DNA from: Dactylosporangium sp. AC04546 | GTDB taxonomy: Bacteria; Actinomycetota; Actinomycetes; Mycobacteriales; Micromonosporaceae | DNA: 64,000 nt | Assembly: GCF_022095675.1 (NCBI RefSeq) | Contig: NZ_JAHYSG010000053.1 | Coordinates: forward strand, 1 to 64,000 | Direction of reading: 5' to 3' | Shown: positions 3,705-61,364 of the stretch, in pieces | Layout: each line of letters starts with the position of its first letter | How positions within the stretch are numbered: position 1 is the stretch's first letter | Position numbers and translations under genes: made by a program | Notes under the pieces: generated by a model | Seen by the model: only the letters and a program-made list of their open reading frames with translations | Told to the model about the DNA's origin: nothing | Database searches by the model: none

Positions 3705-6380
3705 TCAGTTGCAGGTGATGGCTGGGTAGGGTGCCGGGTAGCTGCCGGACGCGGTGGTCACGGTGGCGGTGCCGGCCGGGAGCTGCCCGGTGCGGGCGTT
3801 GAACGACTGGTAGGCCTGCTTGCCGGGGGCCACGTCGGCGACGGTCTTCGACCCGTACGGCGTGGTGAGCGTGACCGTGACCGCGCTCGTGCCGGCGTTG
3901 ACGGCCGTCACCGCGACGTACGCGGTCGACCCGATGCACCGCGACTGCGCGCCCACCGTCAGCGGGACGCCGGTGACGGTGACGGTCGCCGTGGCCGTGA
4001 CGCCGGTGCCGATGACGTCGCCGGTGACGGTGACCGAGCCGGGCCGGGTCACGTCGGCCGGGCGCCAGGTGACGCGCCGCTGCTGCGCCGAGCCGTCGCT
4101 GAGGTGGACGGTGACGGCGGCGGGGAGGTCGGGCCGCACCCCGGCGGGGGTCGTCGCCGAGACGGCGTCGACCGACGCGGTCTGCACGCCGGCGAGGCGC
4201 TCCCACTCGTCGCCGCGCAGCGCGATGACCGCGCCGTGCTTGGTCTGCGCCGGCAGCTCGAACGTGCCGCCGAGGGCCGACCAGCCGGCCGCCATGTCGG
4301 TGCTGACGAGCGGCGCGTAGCCCTGGACCGCGCCGTAGCGGTCGACGTAGAGGTACCACTTGTCGGCGTAACTGTCCTTGAAGACCAGCGGGCCCTCGAC
4401 CGAGCCGTACTGCGCGCGGCCGATCCGCGTCTGGGTGATGGCGAAGTCGGTCGCGAAGACGCCCGAGCCGACCTCGCCGAACACCTCACGCCCGGCCGAG
4501 CTGTTGTCCTTGCTGAACCGGAACACCTTGCCACCGGCCCGGATCATCGTCGTGTCGATCGTCTCGCCGCCGTTGTCGATGAGCACCTGGGCCGGCGTGA
4601 ACGTGACGAAGTCCCGGGTCTTGGCGTAGAGGATCCGGCTGTAGGTGGCGCCGGTGTGCCCGGTGTCGGTCTCGGCGAACAGCGTCGAGGACCAGAAGAC
4701 GACGTACTCCCCCGTCGTGTCGTCGTAGATCACCTCGGGGGCCCAGGCCATGCCGGCCGTCGGGGGCGCGACCTGGACGAGCCGGGTGTCCGACCAGTGC
4801 ACGAGGTCGGTGGACTCCCAGACCAGCAGCGACCGGCTGCCGCGCCGGCTCCACTCGGTCCAGCCGGCGTTGTCGCCGCCGAAGACCCGCAGGTCGGTGG
4901 CGATGATCCAGAACTTGTCGCCCTCCGGGGACCGGACGAGGTACGGGTCGCGGACACCGGTCGTGCCGAGGCCGGAGGCGAGGATCGGCTCGCCGCCGTT
5001 GAGCCGGTACCAGCGGGTCGGGTCCTCGCCGCGGCTGAGCGAGAGGTAGATCTTCTCCTTGTACCCGTTGGCGTCCTCGACGAAGTGGACCATGAGGTAG
5101 CCGAACGGGTCCTGGACGGCGGGCAGCGCCGGGACGGTCGCGACGAGGTCGCGGCTCGCGGAGGCGTCGCCCTTGCGGCCGGTGACGGTCAGCGTGACGG
5201 TGGCCGGCGGGCTCCCGGCGGCGGGCCGGCTGACCTCGCCGCCCGTGCCGATGACGGCCGGGTTCGACGAGGACCAGGTGAGTCCGACGCCTTCCAGCGC
5301 GGCCGGCAGCCGGAGGTTGCCGCGCACGTCGCCGAGGTTCGGGATGCTCACCTGCGCGACGGCGTGCTGCGCGGCGGTGGCGTCGTCGAACGCCGGCACC
5401 ACGGTCACCGCGAACGCCCTGGTCCGCGTCAGCGCGCCCCGCGTGAGGGTGGCGGTGAGCGTCACCTGCGCCGGCGGCGAGCCGGCCGGCGGGCGGGTCA
5501 CCCTGCCGGCGTTCGACACGACCGCCGGGTCGCTCGATGCCCACGCGATCGCCGAACCTTGCGCGCCCGACGCGGGCAGCGCCAGGTCGCCGAGGACGCT
5601 GCCGGTGTCGCCGAGGGTGAGGGCGGCGAGGTCGGCCTCGACCGCCGCCGTCGACGTCGGGGCGGCGAGCGCCGCGACGTCCGCCGCGGCGAGGGCCCGG
5701 TCGTAGAGGCGGAAGTCGCGCACCTGGCCCTTGAGGCGCTTGTCGGCGGCGTACAGCGAGCGGCCGATCCAGTTGTCGGCCGTCACGCCGCCGCCGATCG
5801 TGCCCGGATCGACGGTCACGCCGGTGTTCTGGGCGACCTGGACGCCGTCCTCGAACAGGGTCGCCGTGGTGCCCGACAGCGTGTACGTGAGCGTCTTCCA
5901 GACCCCGCGGGTCAGGTTGCCGCTCCTGGCCACGGTCTGCTCGGTCCGCCAGTTGCCGGTGGTGATCGAGGACCGGTAGGCGTTGCCGGTCGTGAAGAGG
6001 TAGCCGGCCGGGTCGCCGGTGGTGGCGTTGCCGAGGCCGTAGATGAAGTACGGCGTCGCCTGGCCGGTGTCGACGAGCACGTCGATGCTGACGGTGACGT
6101 CGGTGAGGCCGGTGAGCAGGTTGTCGGGCAGGTCGACGTAGTCGTCGACGCCGTCGAGCCGGACGCCGTCGGCGGTGCGCCCGGCACCGCCGACGACGGT
6201 CGCGGCACCGAACGCCGACCCGGCGGCGGCGTTGGCCGCTCCGGTGCCGGTGGTCTCGGTCATGGGGTACCAGACGAGCAGCCCCGCGTCAGCGGGCTCG
6301 CCGACGGCGGCGGCCGGGGTGGCCGCCGCCACGACGCTCAGGACGAGCGCCGCGGCGGCCGCGATGTGGTGCGGTTTCAC
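3705..6380 (-). CDS. LamG-GH43-like extracellular arabinan-degrading enzyme
   Basis: 891 residues with a signal peptide. Order: LamG-like domain (about 35-225, with LDGVDDYVDLP), two degenerate Ig-like domains (about 240-400), a five-bladed GH43-like domain (about 424-725), another Ig-like domain, then the shared C-terminal module (about 805-891, TPYGSKTV and VAPGKQAYQSFN). The GH43-like part shows GVRDPYLVRSPEGDKFWIIATD, WAPEVIYDD and YGSVEGPLVF, consistent with the catalytic Asp/Glu positions of GH43-type arabinanases or arabinofuranosidases. It lies in a co-directional run of arabinan genes, with only 12 bases between it and the GH51 gene. Exact linkage specificity cannot be read from sequence. 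Confidence 0.78.
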   Translation of the reverse strand: MKPHHIAAAAALVLSVVAAATPAAAVGEPADAGLLVWYPMTETTGTGAANAAAGSAFGAATVVGGAGRTADGVRLDGVDDYVDLPDNLLTGLTDVTVSIDVLVDTGQATPYFIYGLGNATTGDPAGYLFTTGNAYRSSITTGNWRTEQTVARSGNLTRGVWKTLTYTLSGTTATLFEDGVQVAQNTGVTVDPGTIGGGVTADNWIGRSLYAADKRLKGQVRDFRLYDRALAAADVAALAAPTSTAAVEADLAALTLGDTGSVLGDLALPASGAQGSAIAWASSDPAVVSNAGRVTRPPAGSPPAQVTLTATLTRGALTRTRAFAVTVVPAFDDATAAQHAVAQVSIPNLGDVRGNLRLPAALEGVGLTWSSSNPAVIGTGGEVSRPAAGSPPATVTLTVTGRKGDASASRDLVATVPALPAVQDPFGYLMVHFVEDANGYKEKIYLSLSRGEDPTRWYRLNGGEPILASGLGTTGVRDPYLVRSPEGDKFWIIATDLRVFGGDNAGWTEWSRRGSRSLLVWESTDLVHWSDTRLVQVAPPTAGMAWAPEVIYDDTTGEYVVFWSSTLFAETDTGHTGATYSRILYAKTRDFVTFTPAQVLIDNGGETIDTTMIRAGGKVFRFSKDNSSAGREVFGEVGSGVFATDFAITQTRIGRAQYGSVEGPLVFKDSYADKWYLYVDRYGAVQGYAPLVSTDMAAGWSALGGTFELPAQTKHGAVIALRGDEWERLAGVQTASVDAVSATTPAGVRPDLPAAVTVHLSDGSAQQRRVTWRPADVTRPGSVTVTGDVIGTGVTATATVTVTGVPLTVGAQSRCIGSTAYVAVTAVNAGTSAVTVTLTTPYGSKTVADVAPGKQAYQSFNARTGQLPAGTATVTTASGSYPAPYPAITCN

Positions 6381-50765: not shown

Positions 50766-51906
50766 CGCGCAGTTCCCACAGCTGGCGCCAGAGCCGGGCG
50801 CCCTCCTCGGCGCGGCGGCGGACGGCGCCGTCCCAGTAGCCGAGGAGCTTCGCGCCGTCGGTCGGGTCGTCCTTGCACACCACGCCCTGCAGGTGGGCCG
50901 GGACGAGCGACAGCACGTCGCGGTCGCCCGGGAAGTAGGCGGCGGCGAGGCCGAGCGACGTGGCCACCGCGACCGCCTCGGCGGTGCTCATGACGGTGGA
51001 CGGGCGCTCGACCTCCCAGCCCTCGACGGACCGGCCGGCCCGCAGGTCGCGGAACGCGGTGACGAGCACCTCGAGCACGGCGTCGTCGACCGCGAACGCG
51101 GTCTGGACCCGGTCGAGGGCGGCCCGGGCCTGGCGGGCCACGAGCGCGGTCTCGGCGGCCAGGTCGGGGATCGGGCCGACGGTCTCGAAGTTGAACCGCC
51201 GCTTGAGCGCGGCGGACATCTCCGACACCCCGCGGTCACGGAGGTTGGCGGTGGCGATGAGCGTGAAGCCCGGCGCCGCGTGGATCGTGGCGCCGGGGGT
51301 GCCGGCCAGCTCGGGCACGGCGATGCGCCGGTCCGACAGGATCGACACCATGGCGTCCTGCACCTCGGGCAGGCAGCGGGTGATCTCCTCGATCCGCGCG
51401 ACAGCACCCGTGCGCATCGCGGTCAGCACCGGGGAGGGCACCAGCGCCTCCGGGCTCGGGCCGGAGGCCAGCAGCAGGGCGTAGTTCCACCCGTAGCGCA
51501 GCTGGTCCTCCGTGGTGCCCGCGGTGCCCTGAACGACCAGCTCGCTGGTGCCGCAGACGGCCGCCGACAGCAGCTCGGACAGCATCGACTTGGCCGTGCC
51601 GGGCTCGCCGACGAGCAGCAGCCCGCGCTCGCCGGCCAGGGTCACCACGCAGCGCTCGACGAGCGACCGGTCACCGACGAACTTGCGCGGGATCGTGAGC
51701 TTGACCGGCACGCCCTCGGGCCGCACGCCCTTGGGCAGGGTCAGCTCACGGTCGTCGCTGCCGGCGATGAAGGTCACCACGGCGCGCGGCGTGAGGCGCC
51801 AGCCGGGCGGCCGGGGGCCGTCGTCGTAGGCCGCCAGGAACTCGAGCTCGGTCGCGTGCGCGAACTCGGCGGGGTCGATCTGCCGGGTCAGGGTGGAGGC
51901 CGTCAT
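50749..51906 (-). CDS. MoxR-type AAA ATPase (YehL-like)
   Basis: 385 residues from ATG 51906, which overlaps the DUF4132 stop (ATGA). AAA motifs: Walker A LLLVGEPGTAKSMLSELL, a Walker-B-like AVARIEEITRCLPEVQDAMVSILSDRRI, sensor 1 FTLIATANLRDRGVSEMSAALKRRFNFE (Asn and Arg finger). This is the MoxR branch, which pairs with VWA proteins to remodel or metal-load targets. Counterpart of E. coli YehL. The C-terminal part includes SLVPAHLQGVVCKDDPTDGAKLLGYWDG. Confidence 0.85.
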   Translation of the reverse strand: MTASTLTRQIDPAEFAHATELEFLAAYDDGPRPPGWRLTPRAVVTFIAGSDDRELTLPKGVRPEGVPVKLTIPRKFVGDRSLVERCVVTLAGERGLLLVGEPGTAKSMLSELLSAAVCGTSELVVQGTAGTTEDQLRYGWNYALLLASGPSPEALVPSPVLTAMRTGAVARIEEITRCLPEVQDAMVSILSDRRIAVPELAGTPGATIHAAPGFTLIATANLRDRGVSEMSAALKRRFNFETVGPIPDLAAETALVARQARAALDRVQTAFAVDDAVLEVLVTAFRDLRAGRSVEGWEVERPSTVMSTAEAVAVATSLGLAAAYFPGDRDVLSLVPAHLQGVVCKDDPTDGAKLLGYWDGAVRRRAEEGARLWRQLWELRDVLQS

Positions 51907-54900
51907 CGGCGTCCCTTCGTGTTCGTGGTGAGTTCTTCGAATCGGGGAAGGTCGCCGGCGGTGATCCGGCCCCAGGCGAGCTCGAACAGCCGCGGCGCGG
52001 GCGCGACCGGCACGACGACGCCGAGGCCGCCGATGTCCTCGCCGTCGCCGATGAGCAGCGGCAGCTTCCACCGCTCCAGCGGCACGTGCGGCGTGCCGAG
52101 GGCGAGCCATCCGCCGGGCAGGAACAGCGACCGGCCGGCGCGGGGCCGCTTGGCCTCGACGACGAGGTCGGTGCCGGCCAGCTCGGCCCGGGCCTTCTTG
52201 AGCCGGGCCGGCTTCCAGCCCGTCCAGGTGGCGACGTTGCGGTCGGTCGGGTCGGGCAGGGCCAGCAGCTGGAGGTAGACCGTGGCGGCGTCGGCGCTCA
52301 GGCCGTGCCGCTCGGCGACCGTGGCGACCAGCTCGGGCACCGAGCGGGACGGGTCGTGCGCGTCCTCGACCGGCTCGGCGCCGATCCAGTCGGCGAGCTG
52401 GCCGGCGAGCACCGCGCGGGCCGCGACGATCTGCTGGCTCTCGCCCGTGAACGCGATCAGCGCCCCGAGGAACGGGTCGTCGACCCCGGCGACGCGGGCC
52501 GGGCGGAGGTGGATCGCGTTCCAGTAGCCGCCCTGCGTCATGAAGAACAGGCCGGTGTCGATGGCCTTCTCGTCGCGGGTGACCGGGGTGCCGAGGCCGG
52601 CGACGAACTTCTCGAACGCCTCGGTGTCGTTGTGCCCGACGACGAACGTGGTCTCCGGGTCGCGCAGCCGCTGCCCGGCCAGCTCCAGCACGCGGGGCAG
52701 CGCGACGCGGATCGGGTCGGCGACCGGCAGCCGCCGCACCAGCCACGGCACGCTGCGCACGACCGAGATGACGACGTCGTCGACGTCGACGCCGTCGACG
52801 TTGCCCTGCAGCCAGCGGCAGGTCTCCGCGTTGGCCACGCCGTGCAGGAACTCGGAGGCGGGCAGGCCGGCGACCGAGCCGGAGCGGTGCAGCTCCAGGA
52901 TGAGCCCGTCGTCGACCGGGGTGCGGACGCCGACGCGCTCGGTGCGCCAGGCGGCCATCCGGTCCAGCGCCGGCCCGGTGGTCCACAGCGCCGACGGGTC
53001 CTCGGGCAGCAGCACCGCGTGGACGCCGGCGGACGGGGACAGCGTGCTGTCGCGGCGGATCCGCTCGATCGCCAGCTCGACGGTCGCGGGGGTGACGGAC
53101 GGGTCGAGCTCCCACCCCTCGGGCCGCTGCTCCCACCCGTCCTTGTCGCGGGGGCCGGTGAGCAGCACGGTGGCCTCGGCGAGGCTGATCCCGGCCGCGA
53201 CGGACGTGGCCCTGACGAGCTCGGGCCGGTAGGGCAGCGGGCCGTTGGCGCGGGCGGCCGCGACGAACGCGGTCACCTGCTCGGCACCGATGCCGTGGGT
53301 GTGCATGACCCGGTGCTCGGCGCTGATCGTGTGCCCGGGGATCGGCCCGGACCGGCCGCTGGTCGCGAGCTCCAGCACGACCGCGTCGCCGTCCTCCTTG
53401 TCGACCCGGGTCGCGACCAGCCGCCGCCCGTCACCGAGGTCGACGACCTCGCCGGCGGTCAGGACCGGCGCCTGGGTGTCGGACCGCAGCATCATGCGCC
53501 GGAACCGGGCGCCCGCGACGATCAGGCCGGAGTCGGCGATGATCTCCAGCAGGTCGAGGATGGCGGTGCGGTGCTCGGCCGGGGTGAGCGGCGAGACGGC
53601 CCGCACAAGGACGGCCGGCAGCGCCCCGATGGTGTCGAACCAGTCGACGTCGGCCCGGGCGAGCACGTCCTTGATCGGCCGGTCGGGCTCGCGGCCGGTG
53701 AGGGCCGCGCCGGTGAGCCGGAACAGCCGGACCGCCTCGTGCCCGTGGTCGTAGCAGCCGGGGATGAGCCCGCTGAGTGCCGCGTTGAGCAGCGTGTCCG
53801 ACGGCTTGTCGGCGTCGGGGTCGGTCACCGCGGCGACCGACCGGGCGGCGATCTCGGCGGTCGCGGTGGTGAGCCGGTGCAGCCGCCGCGCGGAGCGGGC
53901 GGCGTGCCGGACCACCCCGGCGACGCCGGCGAGCAGCGCCGGGTGGGCCAGCCCGGGCAGGGCGTCGGCCACCAGCTTCCGGACCGCCTCGGCGTCGAGG
54001 TCGGCGTCGGGCTCGGCCCCGCTCTGGGCGAGGGCGGCGGCGAGCAGCTCGCCGGCCGTGGCGTCGGTGAGCCCGCGCAGCGCCGCGGAGCCGGCCTCGT
54101 CGCGCGGCCGCAGGTAGTGCCAGTAGGGCGGCGGCGGCACCAACGGGGTGCCCTCGGCGAACGGGCCGCTCTCCCCTTCGAGACGGACGTGCGCGAAGCG
54201 CAGCCCGTCGGCGGTGGTGAGCACGACGGCGTTGTTGCGATACGCCTCCTGGCGGAGCATGCCGTACACGGTGTCGGCGCCGGGGAAGCGGATCGCGCCG
54301 ATCAGCTGGCCGGCGGTGCCCCCGCCGGGCTGGCCCGGCTCGGTGAACGTGCGCCCGTCGGCGCCCTCGCCGAGCTGGGCGCCGCCCGGGCCGCGGCGCA
54401 GCCGCCAGCCGATGAGCCCGTCGCGCTGGCCGAGCGGGCTGCCGACGATCTCAGGGCCGCCGGTGCGCAGGCGGCAGGCGAGGGGCTCCAGCTCGAAGCC
54501 CGCGACGCCGCCCGCCTCGAAGAACGCCGGCATCGACGCGCGGCCGAGATCGCCGGTCGCGGGGTCGAACTCGCGCCACCGCCAGGTGTAGTCGTTCTGG
54601 TGATACATGAGCACCCAGTAGTGCAGGCCGTCGGTCGCGACGGTGCCGCGGTCGACCGCGGCGCGGTCGCCCGGGTGCAGCGGCCGCCAGCCGCCGGTGC
54701 GGCCGCCGCCGGGCAGCGCCATCGAGCCCTGGCCGTCGCCGGAGAACGCGTCCTCCGGGGCCTCGAACACGTCGTCCGGGGCACCGGTCCAGTAGCCGGC
54801 GCGCTTGTCGTCGGCGTCCCAGGTGACGAGGAGCTGACCGTCGACATACCGCAGCGTCTGCCGCCACCGCCACTGCCGGTGCGCGGGCGGGATGCGCAGC

Positions 54901-56678
54901 AGGTGCTCCAGCTCGACGCCGTCGGCGCCGGCGACGACCACCTGCTCGCCGGAGCGCAGCATCAGCTGCGGCCACTGGGCCTGCAGCTCGGGACGGTCAC
55001 CACCCGGCGACACCAGGCGCGCGACCGCGTCCTCCAGGGCGGGCCAGCCGTACTCGTCGAAGACGCCGGCCCGCAGCGAGGCGCCGAGGATCGGGCCGAG
55101 GTCGTGCTCGGTGATGCGCCGGATCGCCTCCGGGTTGACCGCGAGGCCCTCCGGGCAGGCGACCAACGCGAGCCGGGCCAGCTCGGGAGCGAGCGACGTC
55201 AGCCCCTCGCGCACGATGCGCCCGGCGAGCCGGTCGAGCCAGCCGTGCAGCGCGGACCGCAGGCCGGGCACCGCGACGACGGTCGCGACCCGCTCCGGCG
55301 ACACGCTGACGTTGTCGCCCCAGCCGGTGCGCAGGAAGCCCTCCACCGCTTCGCCGAGGCGGCCCAGCAGCGGCTCGAACCGCCCCACGTGGGCCAGGTC
55401 GCGACGGCCCTCGGCCTCGTCCTTGACCCAGCTGTCGACCGGGCAGTGCACGTCCTCGGCGAACTCGGCGAGCGGCACCTCCAGCTCCAGACACAGGTCG
55501 ACGACGTCGAGGTCGACCGCCTGGCGGGTGCTGCCCAGGTCGACCGGGACGCCATCGACGCGCAGCCGCTCCGCCATGCGCTCGACGAGCCGCAGCTGGG
55601 CCGGGAGCCGCTTGCGCCGCCAGTCGGCCCGGTGCTTGTCGAGCCGGGACAGCCAGCCGGCCGGGCCGTCGGACGGCTCGGCTCCGGCCGGGACCGAGCC
55701 GGCCGGGCCGGTGAGCGAGTCGCTCGCCCCCGACTCGTCGAGGATGTCGAGCCACACGTCGCCAGGGCACTCGCGCGGGAAGATGCCGAGCAGCTGCCCG
55801 CGGACCTGCGGGTCGCGGCGGGCCAGGCGGATGAGCGCAGGACGGTACGCCGTCCAGAAGCCGCCGGGAGCGCGCAGGATCGACGGCGCCTCCAGCAGCT
55901 CGGCGATCAGGCGCTCCTCGTCCTCCTCGCCGACCTTGGCCGCCTTCGCCAGGCGGCGCAGGTCGACATGCATCTGCGCATAGGGCGGCATGCCGCCGAG
56001 GGTGCGCTCGACGCACAGGCGGCGGAACCGCTCGTAGGCCACGGTCGGCGCGCTGCGCCCGGCGAGGTCGCGGGCGTGGGCCGACAGCGCCTTCGCGGTG
56101 AGCGCGCCGGCGAGGGCGAACTCGAGGAAGACGGTGTGCTGGCGCTCCTCGTCGATGGTGAGCGCGAAGAGGCGCTCGGCCTCGCGGGCCTTGCCGAACA
56201 TGGTGGCCGCGTAGGTGGTGCTGTCGGCGACGAGGAACGCACGGGCGGCCTCCTCGTAGAACGTCGGCAGGAAGTGCGGCACGGAGCGGGCCAGCCGCTC
56301 GCCGAGCTCGTTGAAGCCGTCGCGGGCCGGGCCGATGCGCGACTTCGCCACGCGCGAGAGCCGCTCGATGTCCTTCACCAGCGCGAGGGCGTGGTGGCCA
56401 TTGGCCGGGTCGTGGACGAGCGCCCAGGCCGGGAAGCCGAGCGCCTGCTGCCGCACGACGCCGACCTCGGCGACCTCCTCGGGCGCGGCGAAGCCGAGGA
56501 ACTCCATCGTCAGGTCCTCGGCCGGGCCGAGCGTGCGCGGCACCAGCCGCACCACCGACCGCTCGCCGAGCACCGGGTGCCGGTAGGTCCGGGTGGTCAG
56601 CGTGTCGACCGTGTCGGCCACCGCCTCCGCCCCGGGCAGCAGCACCGCTCCCGCATCCAGCAACGCCTCGTTGTTCAT
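51903..56678 (-). CDS. Giant DUF4132 protein (MolR/YehI-like)
   Basis: 1591 residues from ATG 56678, chosen for GAGGAGGAGG upstream and the ATGA overlap with the previous gene. Mostly helical and repeat-like, with no signal peptide or membrane helix. The C-terminal half holds the DUF4132 region, followed by a short compact domain ending in AWGRITAGDLPRFEELTTNTKG. E. coli MolR/YehI belongs to this family, and its early link to molybdate regulation is not well supported. The operon position before a MoxR/VWA pair suggests it is the scaffold or client of that machine. Confidence 0.75.
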   Translation of the reverse strand: MNNEALLDAGAVLLPGAEAVADTVDTLTTRTYRHPVLGERSVVRLVPRTLGPAEDLTMEFLGFAAPEEVAEVGVVRQQALGFPAWALVHDPANGHHALALVKDIERLSRVAKSRIGPARDGFNELGERLARSVPHFLPTFYEEAARAFLVADSTTYAATMFGKAREAERLFALTIDEERQHTVFLEFALAGALTAKALSAHARDLAGRSAPTVAYERFRRLCVERTLGGMPPYAQMHVDLRRLAKAAKVGEEDEERLIAELLEAPSILRAPGGFWTAYRPALIRLARRDPQVRGQLLGIFPRECPGDVWLDILDESGASDSLTGPAGSVPAGAEPSDGPAGWLSRLDKHRADWRRKRLPAQLRLVERMAERLRVDGVPVDLGSTRQAVDLDVVDLCLELEVPLAEFAEDVHCPVDSWVKDEAEGRRDLAHVGRFEPLLGRLGEAVEGFLRTGWGDNVSVSPERVATVVAVPGLRSALHGWLDRLAGRIVREGLTSLAPELARLALVACPEGLAVNPEAIRRITEHDLGPILGASLRAGVFDEYGWPALEDAVARLVSPGGDRPELQAQWPQLMLRSGEQVVVAGADGVELEHLLRIPPAHRQWRWRQTLRYVDGQLLVTWDADDKRAGYWTGAPDDVFEAPEDAFSGDGQGSMALPGGGRTGGWRPLHPGDRAAVDRGTVATDGLHYWVLMYHQNDYTWRWREFDPATGDLGRASMPAFFEAGGVAGFELEPLACRLRTGGPEIVGSPLGQRDGLIGWRLRRGPGGAQLGEGADGRTFTEPGQPGGGTAGQLIGAIRFPGADTVYGMLRQEAYRNNAVVLTTADGLRFAHVRLEGESGPFAEGTPLVPPPPYWHYLRPRDEAGSAALRGLTDATAGELLAAALAQSGAEPDADLDAEAVRKLVADALPGLAHPALLAGVAGVVRHAARSARRLHRLTTATAEIAARSVAAVTDPDADKPSDTLLNAALSGLIPGCYDHGHEAVRLFRLTGAALTGREPDRPIKDVLARADVDWFDTIGALPAVLVRAVSPLTPAEHRTAILDLLEIIADSGLIVAGARFRRMMLRSDTQAPVLTAGEVVDLGDGRRLVATRVDKEDGDAVVLELATSGRSGPIPGHTISAEHRVMHTHGIGAEQVTAFVAAARANGPLPYRPELVRATSVAAGISLAEATVLLTGPRDKDGWEQRPEGWELDPSVTPATVELAIERIRRDSTLSPSAGVHAVLLPEDPSALWTTGPALDRMAAWRTERVGVRTPVDDGLILELHRSGSVAGLPASEFLHGVANAETCRWLQGNVDGVDVDDVVISVVRSVPWLVRRLPVADPIRVALPRVLELAGQRLRDPETTFVVGHNDTEAFEKFVAGLGTPVTRDEKAIDTGLFFMTQGGYWNAIHLRPARVAGVDDPFLGALIAFTGESQQIVAARAVLAGQLADWIGAEPVEDAHDPSRSVPELVATVAERHGLSADAATVYLQLLALPDPTDRNVATWTGWKPARLKKARAELAGTDLVVEAKRPRAGRSLFLPGGWLALGTPHVPLERWKLPLLIGDGEDIGGLGVVVPVAPAPRLFELAWGRITAGDLPRFEELTTNTKGRR

Positions 56679-57553
56679 GCCGCCTCCTCCTCGCCGCTCT
56701 CCTCGACCACCCGGCCGGCGTAGAGCGCCGCCGCCATGCGCATGCCCTCGGACCACGCCACCGGCCCCACCTCGGCGAGCGGGATGCCCGCGCCGTCGCC
56801 CCTCACGAACACCAGGTCACCGGTCTCCGCCTCGGACCAGGGGTCGTCGGCCCCGACCCAGCTGCGGGCCTCGACGACCTGCCCGTCCTCGAACACGCGG
56901 CAGACCGCATAGCCGCCCTTCGCCGGATAGCCCAGCGAGGCGGCCCGGCCCAGCAGGTGCCGCAGCTCGGCGAAGCGGCCCCCGGCATAGTCGCGGACCG
57001 CCCGCGCGGAGGCGTCCAGCACCGCCGGGCGCACCCACGTCTGGCGGAACAGCTGGTCGACGGACTGGTTGACGCCGAGGTCGGCGGCGAACTCGCGCAG
57101 GTCGTCGAGGTCGGGCAGGCGCACCGGGTGCGGGACCGCGACCCGCTCGGCCGGCAGCCGCACGGTCTCGCCGTCGAGGTTGACGATGCCGATCCCGTCG
57201 GGGCCGGCGTCGCGCAGGAAGCCGACCTCGTCGGGGTCCCAGCCGCCGTCGTCGTCGAGGACCGCGACGACCAGGTCGGTCAGCGCCGCCCGCCACGTCT
57301 CGTCGGCCCAGACCCGGGCCAGGACCGCGGCCGGCACCGGCAGCGACCGGACCATCCACAGGTCGACCTGCTCGCGGACCTGGGCCTCGTGGCGGCCCAG
57401 CCACTCGACGAGCTGCCGCAGCCCGGCCACCGCCGGGTCGTCGCGCAGCGCCGGTGGCACCGACTTGAGCACCTTGCCCTTCGCGTTGCGGCAGGCTATC
57501 TGCCCGGACACCAGGGTGACCTCGTAGCCACCACTCGCCGCCAACCACGTCAT
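56675..57553 (-). CDS. Small DUF4132-like protein heading the operon
   Basis: 292 residues. It begins MTWLAASGGYEVTLVSGQIACRNAKGKVLKSVP, a beta-rich segment seen in DUF4132 proteins. The later RVAVPHPVRLPDLDDLREFAADLGVNQSVDQLFRQTWVRP resembles the C-terminal DUF4132 core. It is the first gene of a five-gene series with 4-bp or longer overlaps at every junction, implying a fixed stoichiometry. A dyad (57584-57598) lies upstream. Possibly a paralogous partner of the giant DUF4132 protein. Confidence 0.7.
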   Translation of the reverse strand: MTWLAASGGYEVTLVSGQIACRNAKGKVLKSVPPALRDDPAVAGLRQLVEWLGRHEAQVREQVDLWMVRSLPVPAAVLARVWADETWRAALTDLVVAVLDDDGGWDPDEVGFLRDAGPDGIGIVNLDGETVRLPAERVAVPHPVRLPDLDDLREFAADLGVNQSVDQLFRQTWVRPAVLDASARAVRDYAGGRFAELRHLLGRAASLGYPAKGGYAVCRVFEDGQVVEARSWVGADDPWSEAETGDLVFVRGDGAGIPLAEVGPVAWSEGMRMAAALYAGRVVEESGEEEAA

Positions 57554-57685: not shown

Positions 57686-57961
57686 ATGTGCCGGAACATC
57701 CGCGTGCTCAACAACTTCGAGCCGCCCGCCACCGAGGACGAGATCGACGCCGCCGCGCTGCAGTACGTGCGGAAGGTCGCGGGCATGACCAGGCCGTCCG
57801 CGGCCAACCAGGAGGCCTTCGACGCCGCTGTCGCCGCCGTCGCCGAGGCGACCCGCGTGCTGCTCGACGCTCTGGTCACCAACAGCCCACCGCGCGACCG
57901 CGAGGTCGAGGCGGCCAAGGCCAAGGCCCGCGCCGCGGAGCGCTACGGCACCGGCCGCTGA
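57686..57961 (+). CDS. DUF2277 protein
   Basis: 91 residues, ATG with AAGGTGG upstream. The sequence MCRNIRVLNNFEPPATEDEIDAAALQYVRKVAGM and RPSAANQEAFDAAVAAVAEAT, ending NSPPRDREVEAAKAKARAAERYG, is an almost full-length match to the DUF2277 family as I know it. This is a small widespread bacterial family of unknown role with a conserved N-terminal Cys-Arg-Asn. Monocistronic. Confidence 0.9.
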   Translation: MCRNIRVLNNFEPPATEDEIDAAALQYVRKVAGMTRPSAANQEAFDAAVAAVAEATRVLLDALVTNSPPRDREVEAAKAKARAAERYGTGR

Positions 57962-58032
57962 CGGCGATGCCGCTGCTGGAGCGGGACTCCGCGCCCGGCT
58001 AGCCGGCCGAGTGCGCGGCGCAGGCCAGGGCC

Positions 58033-58155
58033 GGCGAGGGCGAGACCGGTGTCGGGAAGCCGACACCGGTCGAGGTGTTCGCCGAACGGCTGCCCGACGC
58101 GCACTGGGCGTGGGGGAGACGCGACGGGCTGTACACGCCGCGGCCCTCCAGCGCA
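58033..58155 (+). pseudogene. Remnant of a LuxR-type AAA ATPase regulator
   Basis: The plus strand reads GEGETGVGKPTPVEVFAERLPDAHWAWGRRDGLYTPRP, matching the Walker A region of large ATP-dependent LuxR/AfsR-like regulators (compare GEAGIGKTTLVEAFA...WGRCDGLFTPRP). The Thr after the Walker Lys is changed to Pro and both ends are missing. It overlaps no other gene and ends just before the convergent binding-protein gene. Confidence 0.65.
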
Positions 58156-58171
58156 GCCAGAAAAGCTGCGG

Positions 58172-59521
58172 TCAGGAGCCGGCCAGGCCGTTCTCCGTGC
58201 CGACCTTGCGCGCGGCCAGGGCGCGCACGATCGTCGCGGTCTCCTCGTAGCCGATGATGAGCACGGCGTCGGGCTTCGCCTCCCGCACGGAGGCCGCGAT
58301 GCCGCCGAAGTCCTCGGCGCTCGCCGGGTAGCTCAACAGCTCGACGTCGTTCTCGGTCATCCCGGCCGCGACGAGGTCGGCCTGCACGTTGTGCTGCAGG
58401 CCCATCCCGTACGCGTCCTCGCGCGCCACGACGACCACCCGCTTCGGGCCGTCGCGCATGATGACGTCGGCGAGGGCCCGCGCCTGCAGCGTGTCCGGCG
58501 GCGCGGTGCGGAAGAACAGGCCGTTGTCGGGCACCGCGCTCAGCTCGTCCGACGTCGACGACGGCGAGATGAGGATGCGCCCGGCGGCGGCGATCTTCGG
58601 GATGACCGCCTTGGTCACGCTCGACGAGGACGCGCCGATGATGACCTGCACGCCGAGGCCGACGAGCCGGTCGACGGTGGCCGCGGCGACGGCCGCGTCG
58701 GTGCCGTCGTCGCCGTCGACCCACTCGACGGGCTCGCCGAGCACGCCACCGGCGGCGTTGAGGTCGGCGACCGCGAGCTTGGCGCCGGCGAAGCGCGGGC
58801 CGCTGCGGTACGCGAGACGCCCCGTGTGCGGCATGAGCGCGCCGACCTTCAGCGCACGCTTCCGGGTCGAGCTGGACGCAGGGGGCGGCGCGGCCGCGGT
58901 GCTCGCCGACCGCTCGTCCCCGGCGCCGACGTACTCGGTCAGGTTGTCGTTGATGGTGGCGTCGCGGCCGAAGTGCAGCGTGCCGTAGGAGGCCGACGAC
59001 GGCTCGCCCTGGTCGGTGAGGCCGCTGCGGCTCAGCGAGACGCCGCGATAGGCGAAGTCGCGGCCGGCCTTGGCCATGGGCAGGCAGGTGGCCGCGCTGT
59101 CGCACTCGGCGCCGCCGGTCGTGGCGGGGACGATGTGCTTGGCGAGGGCGGGTGCGTCGACGGTACGGGCGGACTCGGCGGCCAGCCCGGCGATCATCAC
59201 CGCGTCGTAGGCCTCGGCGGCGTAGCCGAAGTCGGCGAGCGACGGGTCGACCGCGCGCAGCCGGGTCTTGAAGGTCTCGGGCAGCTTGAGCAGCGGGGCG
59301 GTGCCGGTCATGCCGGACAGCAGCGCGGGGTTCCCGTCGAGCTTGTCACGCAGCGAGTTGGTCATGTTGGCGTCGGAGCCGTAGAGCCGGACATGCACCG
59401 GGGTGTCCGGCTCCTGCCCCGCTCCTTCGCGCTTCGTGCCGCAGCCGGCGAGGGTCACCGCCACCACAAGGACGGCGGCGGTCGACCGCGCCCTGTGTGC
59501 CTGCGTCGCACTGATTGTCAC
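58172..59521 (-). CDS. Circularly permuted Leu/Ile/Val-type substrate-binding lipoprotein
   Basis: 449 residues from a GTG at 59521 with GGAGGA upstream. The lipobox TLAGC (Cys27) anchors it outside the membrane. Residues 42-198 (VHVRLYGSDANM, SLADFGYAAEAYDAV, GGAECDSAATC, SASYGTLHFG) correspond to the C-terminal part of canonical Peripla_BP_6 proteins. After a low-complexity linker (199-222), residues 224-449 (LKVGALMPHTGRLA, AVADLNAAGGVLGEPVE, FFRTAPPDTLQ, IGYEETATIV) correspond to their N-terminal part. The two halves are thus in reversed order. No permease genes are adjacent, so the ligand is unknown; an orphan sensor or scavenging role is possible. Confidence 0.8.
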   Translation of the reverse strand: MTISATQAHRARSTAAVLVVAVTLAGCGTKREGAGQEPDTPVHVRLYGSDANMTNSLRDKLDGNPALLSGMTGTAPLLKLPETFKTRLRAVDPSLADFGYAAEAYDAVMIAGLAAESARTVDAPALAKHIVPATTGGAECDSAATCLPMAKAGRDFAYRGVSLSRSGLTDQGEPSSASYGTLHFGRDATINDNLTEYVGAGDERSASTAAAPPPASSSTRKRALKVGALMPHTGRLAYRSGPRFAGAKLAVADLNAAGGVLGEPVEWVDGDDGTDAAVAAATVDRLVGLGVQVIIGASSSSVTKAVIPKIAAAGRILISPSSTSDELSAVPDNGLFFRTAPPDTLQARALADVIMRDGPKRVVVVAREDAYGMGLQHNVQADLVAAGMTENDVELLSYPASAEDFGGIAASVREAKPDAVLIIGYEETATIVRALAARKVGTENGLAGS

Positions 59522-59666
59522 TGGTCCTCCGGATCCCGAGAGACGGCCGCGAGGACTCTAGGTGCCACGGATGCACGCGAACCAGGCAAGCAAGACGACC
59601 TTGAGGAAACCTTGCCGTAACGGTTGCGGGTGGTACGCTCGTGGCAACAAAAAATCTTGGAAGGAC

Positions 59667-59702
59667 ATGCCGATGTTGGGCGAGGACGACATCTCCGGGT
59701 GA
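59667..59702 (+). CDS. 11-codon leader peptide upstream of ABC-F gene
   Basis: MPMLGEDDISG with GGAAGGAC just before the ATG; the stop lies inside the hairpin at 59693-59711. Leader peptides of this kind control several antibiotic-resistance ABC-F genes by ribosome stalling. Start codon and ribosome site are good, but the peptide is too short to prove by sequence alone. Confidence 0.5.
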   Translation: MPMLGEDDISG

Positions 59703-59711
59703 CACCCGGAG
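59693..59711 (+). promoter_or_regulatory. Attenuator-like hairpin over the leader stop codon
   Basis: CTCCGGGT-GAC-ACCCGGAG forms an 8-bp stem with a 3-base loop that contains most of the leader TGA, 42 bp before the ABC-F start. A ribosome stalled on the leader would stop it forming. Tentative promoter elements TTGCCG and TACGCT occur near 59610-59635. Confidence 0.5.
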
Positions 59712-59753
59712 CTTCGACGTCCCCTTTCCGCTCAACTCTTCCTGGATCGGTTC

Positions 59754-61364
59754 ATGTCCAAGGCTTCCATCGTCGCCACCAGTCTGTCCTTCTCCTGGGC
59801 CGACGCGACCCCCGTCTTCGACGACCTCACCTTCGCCGTCGGCCCCGGCCGCACCGGCCTCGTCGCGCCCAACGGCGCCGGCAAGAGCACGCTGCTGCGG
59901 CTCGTCGCCGGTGACCTGACGCCGACGGGCGGGACGGTCGGCGTGGACGGCGTCCTGGGGTACCTCCCGCAGCACCTCCCCCTCGCCGCCGGCCTCACCG
60001 TCGCCGACGCGCTCGAGATCGCTCCCGTCGTCCGCGCGCTGGCGGCCATCGAGTCCGGCGACGCCGCCGAGGAGCACTTCGCCGTGGTCGGCAGCGACTG
60101 GGACGTCGAGGAGCGGGCCCGGGCCCAGCTCGACCGGCTCGGCCTCGGCGACGTCACGCTCGATCGCCCCCTGGAGACGCTCAGCGGCGGCCAGGTCGTG
60201 TCCCTGGGCCTCGCCGCGCAGCTGCTCAAGCAGCCCGACGTGCTGCTGCTCGACGAGCCGACGAACAATCTCGACCGGGTCGCCCGCGCGCGCCTGCTCG
60301 ACGCGCTCGCCGAGTTCCGCGGGGCCCTGCTCGTCGTCAGCCACGACCGCGAACTGCTCGACCGGGTCGACCGGATCGCCGAGCTGACGAGCGGCGAGCT
60401 GCGCCTGTTCGGCGGGAACTTCACGCTGTATCACGAGGCCAAGCGCGCCTCCCGTGACGTGGCCGAGCAGCGGCTGCGCACCGCGGAGCAGGACCTCAAG
60501 CGGGAGAAGCGCGAGCTGCAGCAGGCCCGCGAACGGGCGGCCCGCCGCGCGTCGGCCGGCGCCCGGGCCGGCCAGGACATCCCGCGCATCATCGCCGGCG
60601 GCCTCAAGCGGCGCGCGCAGGAGTCCGCGGGCCGGGCCGACGACCTGCACGCGCAGCGCGTCGACGCCGCCCGCGCCCGGGTCGACGAGGCCGGCCGCGC
60701 GCTCCGTGAGGACGACACCCTCGCCCTGTCGCTGCCGGGCACGGTGGTACCGCAGGGCCGCACCGTCGTCACGGCCTCCGGCGTGCGCGTCCGCGACCTT
60801 TTCGTTGGTGCCGGCCTGACGATCCGGGGCCCGGAGCGCATCGCCCTCACCGGCCCGAACGGCGCCGGCAAGTCGACCCTGCTGCGCGTGCTGGCCGACC
60901 TGCAGACCCCGGACGCGGGCGAGGTGACGCGCGCCGACGGCCGCGTGGCGTACCTCTCCCAGCGCCTGGACCTGCTCGACCCGGCCGTGTCCACGGCCGA
61001 GCACCTGCGCGCGGCGGCCCCCGGCCGCCCCCGCACGGAGCAGATGCACCTGCTGGCGAGGTTCCTGTTCAAGCCGGACCGCGCGGCCCAGCCGGTGAGC
61101 ACGCTGTCAGGCGGCGAACGCCTCCGCGCGACGCTGCTGTGCGTCCTGTGCGCCGACCCGGCCCCGCACCTGCTGCTGCTCGACGAGCCGACGAACAATC
61201 TCGACCTGACGAGCGTCGAGCAGCTGACGGCGGCCCTGACGGCCTACCGGGGCGCGTTCGTGGTGGTGAGCCACGACGACCGCTTCCTGCAGGACATCGC
61301 GGTCGACCGCTGGCTCACGTTGTCGAACGGCACCGTCCGCGAGACCTCCCCACCACTTCCGTAG
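59754..61364 (+). CDS. ABC-F family ribosome-associated ATPase
   Basis: 536 residues, two ABC domains and no membrane domain. Walker A APNGAGKST and GPNGAGKST, signatures LSGGQ and LSGGERL, Walker B LLLLDEPTNNLD in both. The inter-domain linker (about 230-330) is Arg/Lys-rich, as in the ribosome-facing P-site tRNA interaction motif. ABC-F proteins either rescue ribosomes from antibiotics or act as translation factors. A leader peptide and hairpin upstream favour an inducible antibiotic-resistance type. Confidence 0.88.
   Translation: MSKASIVATSLSFSWADATPVFDDLTFAVGPGRTGLVAPNGAGKSTLLRLVAGDLTPTGGTVGVDGVLGYLPQHLPLAAGLTVADALEIAPVVRALAAIESGDAAEEHFAVVGSDWDVEERARAQLDRLGLGDVTLDRPLETLSGGQVVSLGLAAQLLKQPDVLLLDEPTNNLDRVARARLLDALAEFRGALLVVSHDRELLDRVDRIAELTSGELRLFGGNFTLYHEAKRASRDVAEQRLRTAEQDLKREKRELQQARERAARRASAGARAGQDIPRIIAGGLKRRAQESAGRADDLHAQRVDAARARVDEAGRALREDDTLALSLPGTVVPQGRTVVTASGVRVRDLFVGAGLTIRGPERIALTGPNGAGKSTLLRVLADLQTPDAGEVTRADGRVAYLSQRLDLLDPAVSTAEHLRAAAPGRPRTEQMHLLARFLFKPDRAAQPVSTLSGGERLRATLLCVLCADPAPHLLLLDEPTNNLDLTSVEQLTAALTAYRGAFVVVSHDDRFLQDIAVDRWLTLSNGTVRETSPPLP

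Follow-up and report, generated by a model that had tools for sequence, protein, structure and literature searches.

A natural circular permutation in a LivJ/HAAT-type substrate-binding lipoprotein of Dactylosporangium and its apparent recurrence within one protein family

Results

The stretch of DNA analysed here, hereafter the window, comprises 64,000 nucleotides of Dactylosporangium sp. AC04546 (contig NZ_JAHYSG010000053.1, C53) and carries a gene for a substrate-binding lipoprotein of 449 aa (58172..59521, reverse strand, GTG start, stop included), recognised by its Pfam match and its relatives. All features of this gene given below lie on the same (-) strand. The protein begins with a predicted signal peptide (residues 1-27, 59441..59521), modelled with low pLDDT and ending in the lipobox LAGC with the presumably lipidated Cys27, a call made from the sequence with a regular expression. 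A putative membrane tether (residues 28-41, 59399..59440) leads into a part that corresponds to the C-terminal portion of conventional relatives (residues 42-203, 58913..59398, assigned by its swapped match to the paralog C90, see below). An 18-residue linker between the two original termini (residues 204-221, 58859..58912) joins it to the old N-terminal part, now C-terminal (residues 222-438, 58208..58858, matching Peripla_BP_6 and C90), and a new C-terminal tail closes the chain (residues 439-449, 58175..58207). Tether, linker and tail were delimited from the sequence and the structural model, the linker also from a comparison across the family. The cut that created the new ends separates the helix following IIGYEETATIVRALAARKVG from the strand VHVRLYG and, by the lobe limits of LivJ, would fall in the C lobe. 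A first-pass annotation had read this gene as a circularly permuted binding protein with a new lipobox, two cysteines, a linker between the old termini and a break after IVRALAARKVG, and each of these features was recovered here, the cysteines as residues 140 and 146. A lipobox-like motif with an upstream start codon was found by script in 91 of 92 permuted open reading frames of a redundant set. Scanning of positions 57900-59800 for promoters and terminators returned none. Elsewhere in the window, a 1617-aa open reading frame (51903-56756, (-)) has a 1545-aa open frame on its opposite strand (52086-56723), probably a shadow frame of high-GC DNA.

The order of the two parts was examined with domain profiles in the native and in the rotated sequence. 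In the native window protein, Peripla_BP_6 aligned with residues 224-438 only, the match stopping at profile position 213 (2-213 of 343, E 8.9e-37, 128 bits), while after rotation a single stretch extended over positions 2-306 of 343 with 136.8 bits, and the ANF_receptor profile likewise gave a single stretch (6-330 of 353) whose score rose from 73.1 to 81.7 bits. Coverage of both lobes by Peripla_BP_6 was reached only after rotation; the conventional order of parts is absent from the protein, and a collinear placement of the whole chain, which would speak against permutation, was not obtained. When the halves were taken separately, as the first-pass annotation had proposed, the expectation of a Peripla_BP_6 match held for residues 224-438 and failed for residues 42-204, which alone matched no Pfam family at E 0.01. 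Residues 42-203, used in a single-sequence phmmer search against the PDB, retrieved no LivJ-type chain (the best match, at E 0.011, was an unrelated surface protein), and an NCBIfam search gave matches only far below the cut-offs. The old C-terminal half is therefore recognised through conventional-order members of the family, a profile of 17 of which is collinear with LivJ-type structures (for example, profile positions 63-361 on 4gnr). The same genome encodes such a member, C90, a 444-residue open frame that both halves of the window protein match in swapped order: residues 45-184 align with residues 292-427 of C90 (35% identity, E 1e-18), and residues 224-435 with its residues 73-283 (43% identity, E 9e-48). 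A paralog with the same order as the window protein, C26, is encoded on another contig (450 aa, 53% identity).

The permuted chain is predicted to fold with confidence (AlphaFold2, pLDDT 90.9, pTM 0.88). Residues 1-33 form its sole run of at least three residues below pLDDT 50, and the linker block 211-220 has a mean pLDDT of 82. The best 15 PDB matches of this model in Foldseek were bacterial binding proteins of HAAT type, and ectodomains of class C GPCRs ranked lower in the list. The alignments of these 15 covered 208-242 columns and gave a TM-score by target of 0.37-0.57; matches of this length would be expected if a sequential aligner followed mainly one part of a permuted chain. The model of a group B protein, cut at another site (see below), reached pLDDT 86.5 and pTM 0.84 with similar Foldseek matches. 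The swapped match to C90, the rotated Pfam test, the confident predicted fold, the same-order paralog and the many same-order relatives that a search for such proteins brought up support the permutation first proposed from the sequence, and we conclude that the window protein is a natural circular permutant of a LivJ/HAAT-type substrate-binding protein, belonging to the HAAT type by homology and departing from the order of parts that defines it.

The window genome shows 11.54% contamination and is divided into 348 contigs, so that an assembly artefact or a fused pseudogene had to be considered as the source of the unusual order. The likelihood of such an origin is negligible: orthologs of the window protein, permuted as well, occur in five of the six other Dactylosporangium genomes searched (93%, 78%, 71%, 72% and 71% identity), two of the five being single-contig assemblies; the paralog C26 of the same order lies on a separate contig; and 89 distinct permuted sequences were collected. 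Assembly fusion, which the first-pass annotation had named as one finding that would overturn its reading, was ruled out by these orthologs and relatives. The sixth Dactylosporangium genome gave a 53% match only.

An alignment of 28 permuted proteins contained 53 invariant columns, among them Cys27, Asp50, Cys140 and Cys146. Half-domain profiles built from 28 permuted proteins and applied to the open reading frames of the collected loci sorted these into 99 permuted and 79 conventional ones (redundant), and the final set of 162 distinct homologous rows comprised 89 permuted and 73 conventional sequences. In an even sample of the class, 151 of 394 genomes had a match at E 1e-40, with a full-length permuted gene in at least 11 among the matches listed; in a sample of the phylum, a match was found in 61 of 396 genomes and a full-length permuted gene in eight. 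The permuted gene is present in 26 of 37 Micromonosporaceae genomes, including that of the window. Plasmids yielded two records with partial matches, neither spanning 80% of the query. Two permuted genes appear interrupted, one in a metagenome-assembled genome with an apparent mid-gene frameshift (L093:7800-9182) and one in Micromonospora sp. ATA32 that extends over two frames through decay or sequencing error (L097:2605-3986).

The permuted proteins were arranged in groups, named after the phylogenetic tree had been seen: group A, composed of Micromonosporaceae (M) and of Geodermatophilaceae with G051 (G); group B, with Acidimicrobiia-type records and families f81 and f122; group C, with families f39 and f49 and the metagenome-assembled genome RI_321; group D, with Marmoricola, one genome of family f41, one Nonomuraea and one Streptomyces record; and group E, with two genomes of family f68. 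In groups A, C and D the cut falls between the helix ending in GIGP, or its counterpart, and the strand of VYGTDGN type, and in groups B and E it is displaced by some 25 residues, to a point behind NALGENF or its counterpart, further along the chain.

Many conventional genes of the family occupy the SBP position in the order gltD-pyk-pdtaR-SBP-livFGMH-polA. Outside Micromonosporaceae, livH, livM and ABC genes adjoin 31 of the 34 permuted genes examined, the other three being situated at contig ends. Thus, 12 of 13 permuted genes of Geodermatophilaceae adjoin livFGMH, the thirteenth (L079) lying at a contig end; the permuted gene stands beside liv genes in all six Acidimicrobiia-type loci and in L090 (with one ABC gene detected), L098 and L100; L096, at a contig end, shows ABC genes only; and ten of 11 further loci are beside liv genes, while L212, on a short contig, has LivH and one more distant ABC gene. 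ABC_tran, BCA_ABC_TP_C, BPD_transp_2 and ANTAR domains were confirmed by Pfam in L071. In most loci of G, C and D, pdtaR or polA is also in view, which corresponds to the slot of the conventional gene; neither was detected in the loci of groups B and E, and the same applies to the conventional loci L126 (Acidimicrobiia) and L127. Given this position beside livH, livM and ABC genes, the permuted protein of lineages outside Micromonosporaceae very probably acts as the binding component of the neighbouring liv transporter.

Some loci showed further peculiarities. Several LivH permeases carry an N-terminal CarboxypepD_reg-like stretch before BPD_transp_2 (L018:2406-3806, L106:12159-13601, L100:12779-14209 and L071:12373-13899), above the cut-off in L071 and just under it in the other three, which might act as an extramembrane docking element; the LivH of L089 gave a weak bMG3 match only. 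The permuted binding proteins of Streptomyces sp. GESEQ-4 (L098) and Nonomuraea sp. SYSU D8015 (L096) are very similar, which suggests transfer between lineages, and the former ends a liv operon running in one direction, the usual layout being opposed.

Adjacent liv genes were not detected for the permuted gene at any Micromonosporaceae locus examined, and none of the 79 BPD_transp_2 matches in the window genome is located on the contigs of the window gene (C53) or of C26, in line with the earlier remark that no permease is nearby. A livM of this liv family (E 1e-60) was found in 13 of the 37 Micromonosporaceae genomes, ten of which also have the permuted gene, and the same 13 genomes contain a two-part conventional match; the permuted gene occurs without a livM of this family in 16 of the 26 genomes bearing it. 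The C26 copy adjoins a 4HBT thioesterase gene related to genes placed between livH and polA at liv loci, and the Micromonosporaceae orphan may therefore be a relic of an old liv locus. The window copy, flanked by a DUF2277 gene and by a gene for an ATPase with two ABC domains, looks like an extra genus-level duplicate or paralog of this orphan. At locus L001, a 4HBT thioesterase gene (4286-4801, (-)) stands next to a gene for a small protein with no Pfam match (3780-4169, (-)), and a search of 31 Micromonosporaceae loci located the latter close to the permuted gene in 27.

The number of origins was assessed on trees of rotated sequences. In the 60-row tree, with 30 permuted rows (a single one for group E), the order of parts changes five times, all changes being forced by starred branches, and one permuted clade was recovered in 0% of 200 bootstrap trees. 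An earlier 52-row tree had four order changes, and a tree including seven distant outgroup rows, on very long branches, had six, five of them forced. In the AU test, the grouping of all permuted rows as one clade was rejected (p 1e-9), as were C with D (0.0009), G with B (0.005), B, E, C and D together, and A with B (0.003 in the 52-row set; 0.0345 as M, G and B). Groups B and E as one clade remained above rejection (p 0.073), and a tree constrained to unite M and G scored slightly above the unconstrained one, in which this clade had been missed (p 0.524); the thioesterase adjacent to the C26 copy, found beside polA in many liv loci, also favours one origin for M and G. The test thus rejects a single origin of the permutation and, with B plus E and M plus G each allowed as a single clade, we conservatively count about four origins at two cut sites, possibly five or six.

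Since a count of changes on a tree is blind to gain versus loss, the same trees could be read as a single ancestral permutation after which the conventional order was regained several times, and the root placed by the distant outgroups falls next to a permuted group, on the long Micromonosporaceae branch. It follows from this placement that the conventional order as ancestral state rests on the other HAAT proteins: structurally characterised LivJ-type proteins have the conventional order, and the members of the family with that order are collinear with them. Moreover, every reversion would need to restore the original ends, the two cut sites (A, C and D versus B and E) would require a shift or a second event in any case, and the type of linker follows the nearest conventional relatives, for which reasons we regard reversion as improbable and retain several independent permutations.

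The linkers constitute an independent mark, their type tracking the nearest conventional relatives. A PLxIG-type linker is present in 12 of 14 G rows, 44 of 53 M rows and 18 of 19 conventional rows of Nocardiaceae/Pseudonocardiaceae type, and an xDGxL-type linker in 9/10 B, 4/6 C, 4/4 D and 2/2 E rows and in 45 of 54 other conventional rows. The window protein, with RALKVG, is one of the nine M exceptions to PLxIG.

Trees of the old N-terminal and old C-terminal halves, built on short alignments and with many weak forks, each contained five order changes, three of them forced, and agreed with each other in part. The old-C tree unites M with G, next to conventional rows of Nocardiaceae/Pseudonocardiaceae type, whereas in the old-N tree M stands apart and G is nearer to the remaining rows; B and C are placed differently in detail. 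Such differences might be expected if the halves had been fused from two different binding-protein genes, but both halves of the window protein match the same C90 protein and both half trees place D beside the conventional L152, and we attribute to a chimeric origin only a small likelihood compared with the permutation of one gene.

The presumed binding site was compared with the leucine-binding protein 1usg. Ser300 (58622..58624), Thr323 (58553..58555) and Tyr371 (58409..58411) align with Ser79, Thr102 and Tyr150 of 1usg, which we take to be the residues holding the amino-acid head group, and Asp50 (59372..59374) is presumably the counterpart of Glu226, the amino-group-binding acid of that protein. 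Across the 162 rows, Asp50, Thr323 and the two cysteines of the presumed disulfide, Cys140 (59102..59104) and Cys146 (59084..59086), are invariant, and Ser300 and Tyr371 are conserved in 161 rows each. Judged against 1usg, the edge of the pocket varies little outside M but has changed in M: position 239 is Leu in 108 of 109 rows outside M and in three of 53 within M, and position 321 is Ser, Cys or Thr in 52 of 53 M rows, Ala prevailing elsewhere. These alignments suggest that the ligand is an amino acid or closely derived from one, with a side-chain specificity changed in M, where the ligand of the orphan may differ along with the pocket edge.

The changed pocket edge, together with the lack of an adjacent permease and the absence of the family's livM (E 1e-60) from 16 of the 26 Micromonosporaceae genomes bearing the gene, might also be explained if the orphan were a drifting relic that had lost ligand binding. 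This is unlikely, as the four head-group positions and both cysteines are identical in all 53 M rows and the gene has been kept in 26 of the 37 genomes sampled, and we favour a binding protein with altered specificity.

As to the route, the permutation would have proceeded by in-place duplication and fusion of tandem binding-protein genes followed by trimming. Tandem copies supply the starting point for the duplication mechanism of permutation set out in PMC3320104, and two or three tandem conventional genes lie between pdtaR and the liv genes in the Nonomuraea loci L114, L123 and L125. No open reading frame of the collected loci contained two copies of either half, as a fused intermediate would, and in 12 loci, where tblastn matches reaching past the stop codon of the permuted gene prompted inspection by eye in three frames, no gene remnant was seen behind it; for this reason the duplication route is put forward as an inference.

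Discussion

We consider it highly likely that the window gene encodes a membrane-tethered, amino-acid-binding protein of the Venus-flytrap fold and of the LivJ/HAAT kind, the gene of which has been circularly permuted, with the recurrent origins and the orphan state of the Micromonosporaceae copies forming part of the same explanation. The protein would be exported and lipidated at Cys27, and the order of its parts would set the membrane anchor ahead of the C-lobe, in contrast with conventional relatives, in which it is on the N-lobe. Ser300, Thr323, Tyr371 and Asp50 would hold the head group of an alpha-amino acid and the protein would close around its ligand. In Geodermatophilaceae, Acidimicrobiia and others the permuted protein would feed the adjacent LivHMGF transporter, and in Micromonosporaceae the gene would have been orphaned and its side-chain pocket altered; its product would most likely serve another HAAT permease in trans as a binding protein, or else act as a sensor or scavenger.

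The displacement of the anchor to the other lobe may be the selective reason for the new order. We tentatively propose, with somewhat less than even confidence, that the family was permuted some four to six times at two cut sites and that the permuted form came repeatedly to replace the conventional one as the binding protein of the neighbouring liv transporter, because an anchor on the C-lobe is advantageous for tethered binding proteins.

Natural circular permutation is usually regarded as a rare event, and its apparent repetition in so conserved a component of a transporter is unexpected. Here, beyond what the first-pass annotation had noticed at one gene, the permutation appears recurrent, with several apparent origins and two cut sites, and related permuted genes adjoin a liv transporter. 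The two arrangements coexist in this family: different lineages have one or the other next to the same set of transporter genes, and a single genome can even contain both. They provide natural matched pairs for the study of why permutation happens, of how the position of the anchor relates to transport and of how function is kept in permuted folds. Profile-based annotation spans only half of such proteins, and the family may provide ready-made permuted amino-acid binders for the construction of sensors.

Among the matches listed in a search of openly accessible journal papers, neither a natural permuted HAAT/LivJ protein nor a case of repeated permutation among binding proteins was found. The nearest precedent found is TpMglB-2 (Tp0684), which PMC4990184 describes as a lipid-tethered type I substrate-binding lipoprotein of Treponema that binds glucose and carries a natural circular permutation, for which a Type Ic or Cluster Bc was proposed, with homologs of the same topology in treponemes and Gram-positive bacteria; its authors suggested that this topology may be an adaptation to tethering. 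According to that paper, the first three strands of its N-lobe have moved to the C end with the order of the C-lobe unaffected, and its last 100 residues are 13% identical to the first 100 of EcMglB. On this description, the window protein resembles TpMglB-2 in being a natural permutant, of what is predicted to be the same fold class, with a predicted lipid tether, and differs from it in several respects: it is cut after position 213 of the Peripla_BP_6 profile, far behind the first three strands; its parts keep 35-43% identity to a conventional paralog of the same genome; its family match is to Peripla_BP_6, of branched-chain amino acid type; and the permutation recurs within one family, which belongs to a different subfamily.

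With LivJ and LivK (1usg, 4gnr, 3ipc; HAAT, Peripla_BP_6) the window protein shares the family of its old N-terminal part, the aligned Ser, Thr and Tyr and the predicted fold class, but those proteins have the conventional order, while the window protein is permuted and lacks an adjacent permease. The closest family is formed by the conventional actinobacterial binding proteins encoded beside livFGMH (C90 and those of Rhodococcus, Gordonia and Nonomuraea; 43% and 35% identity per half), which differ in the order of the halves and in bearing the anchor on the other lobe. The NeIle sensor (9jti, 8z0g) also contains an altered chain of a LIV-binding protein, but it is a laboratory-made construct and not a natural gene. 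What is new here is a LivJ-type family that has been permuted repeatedly in nature.
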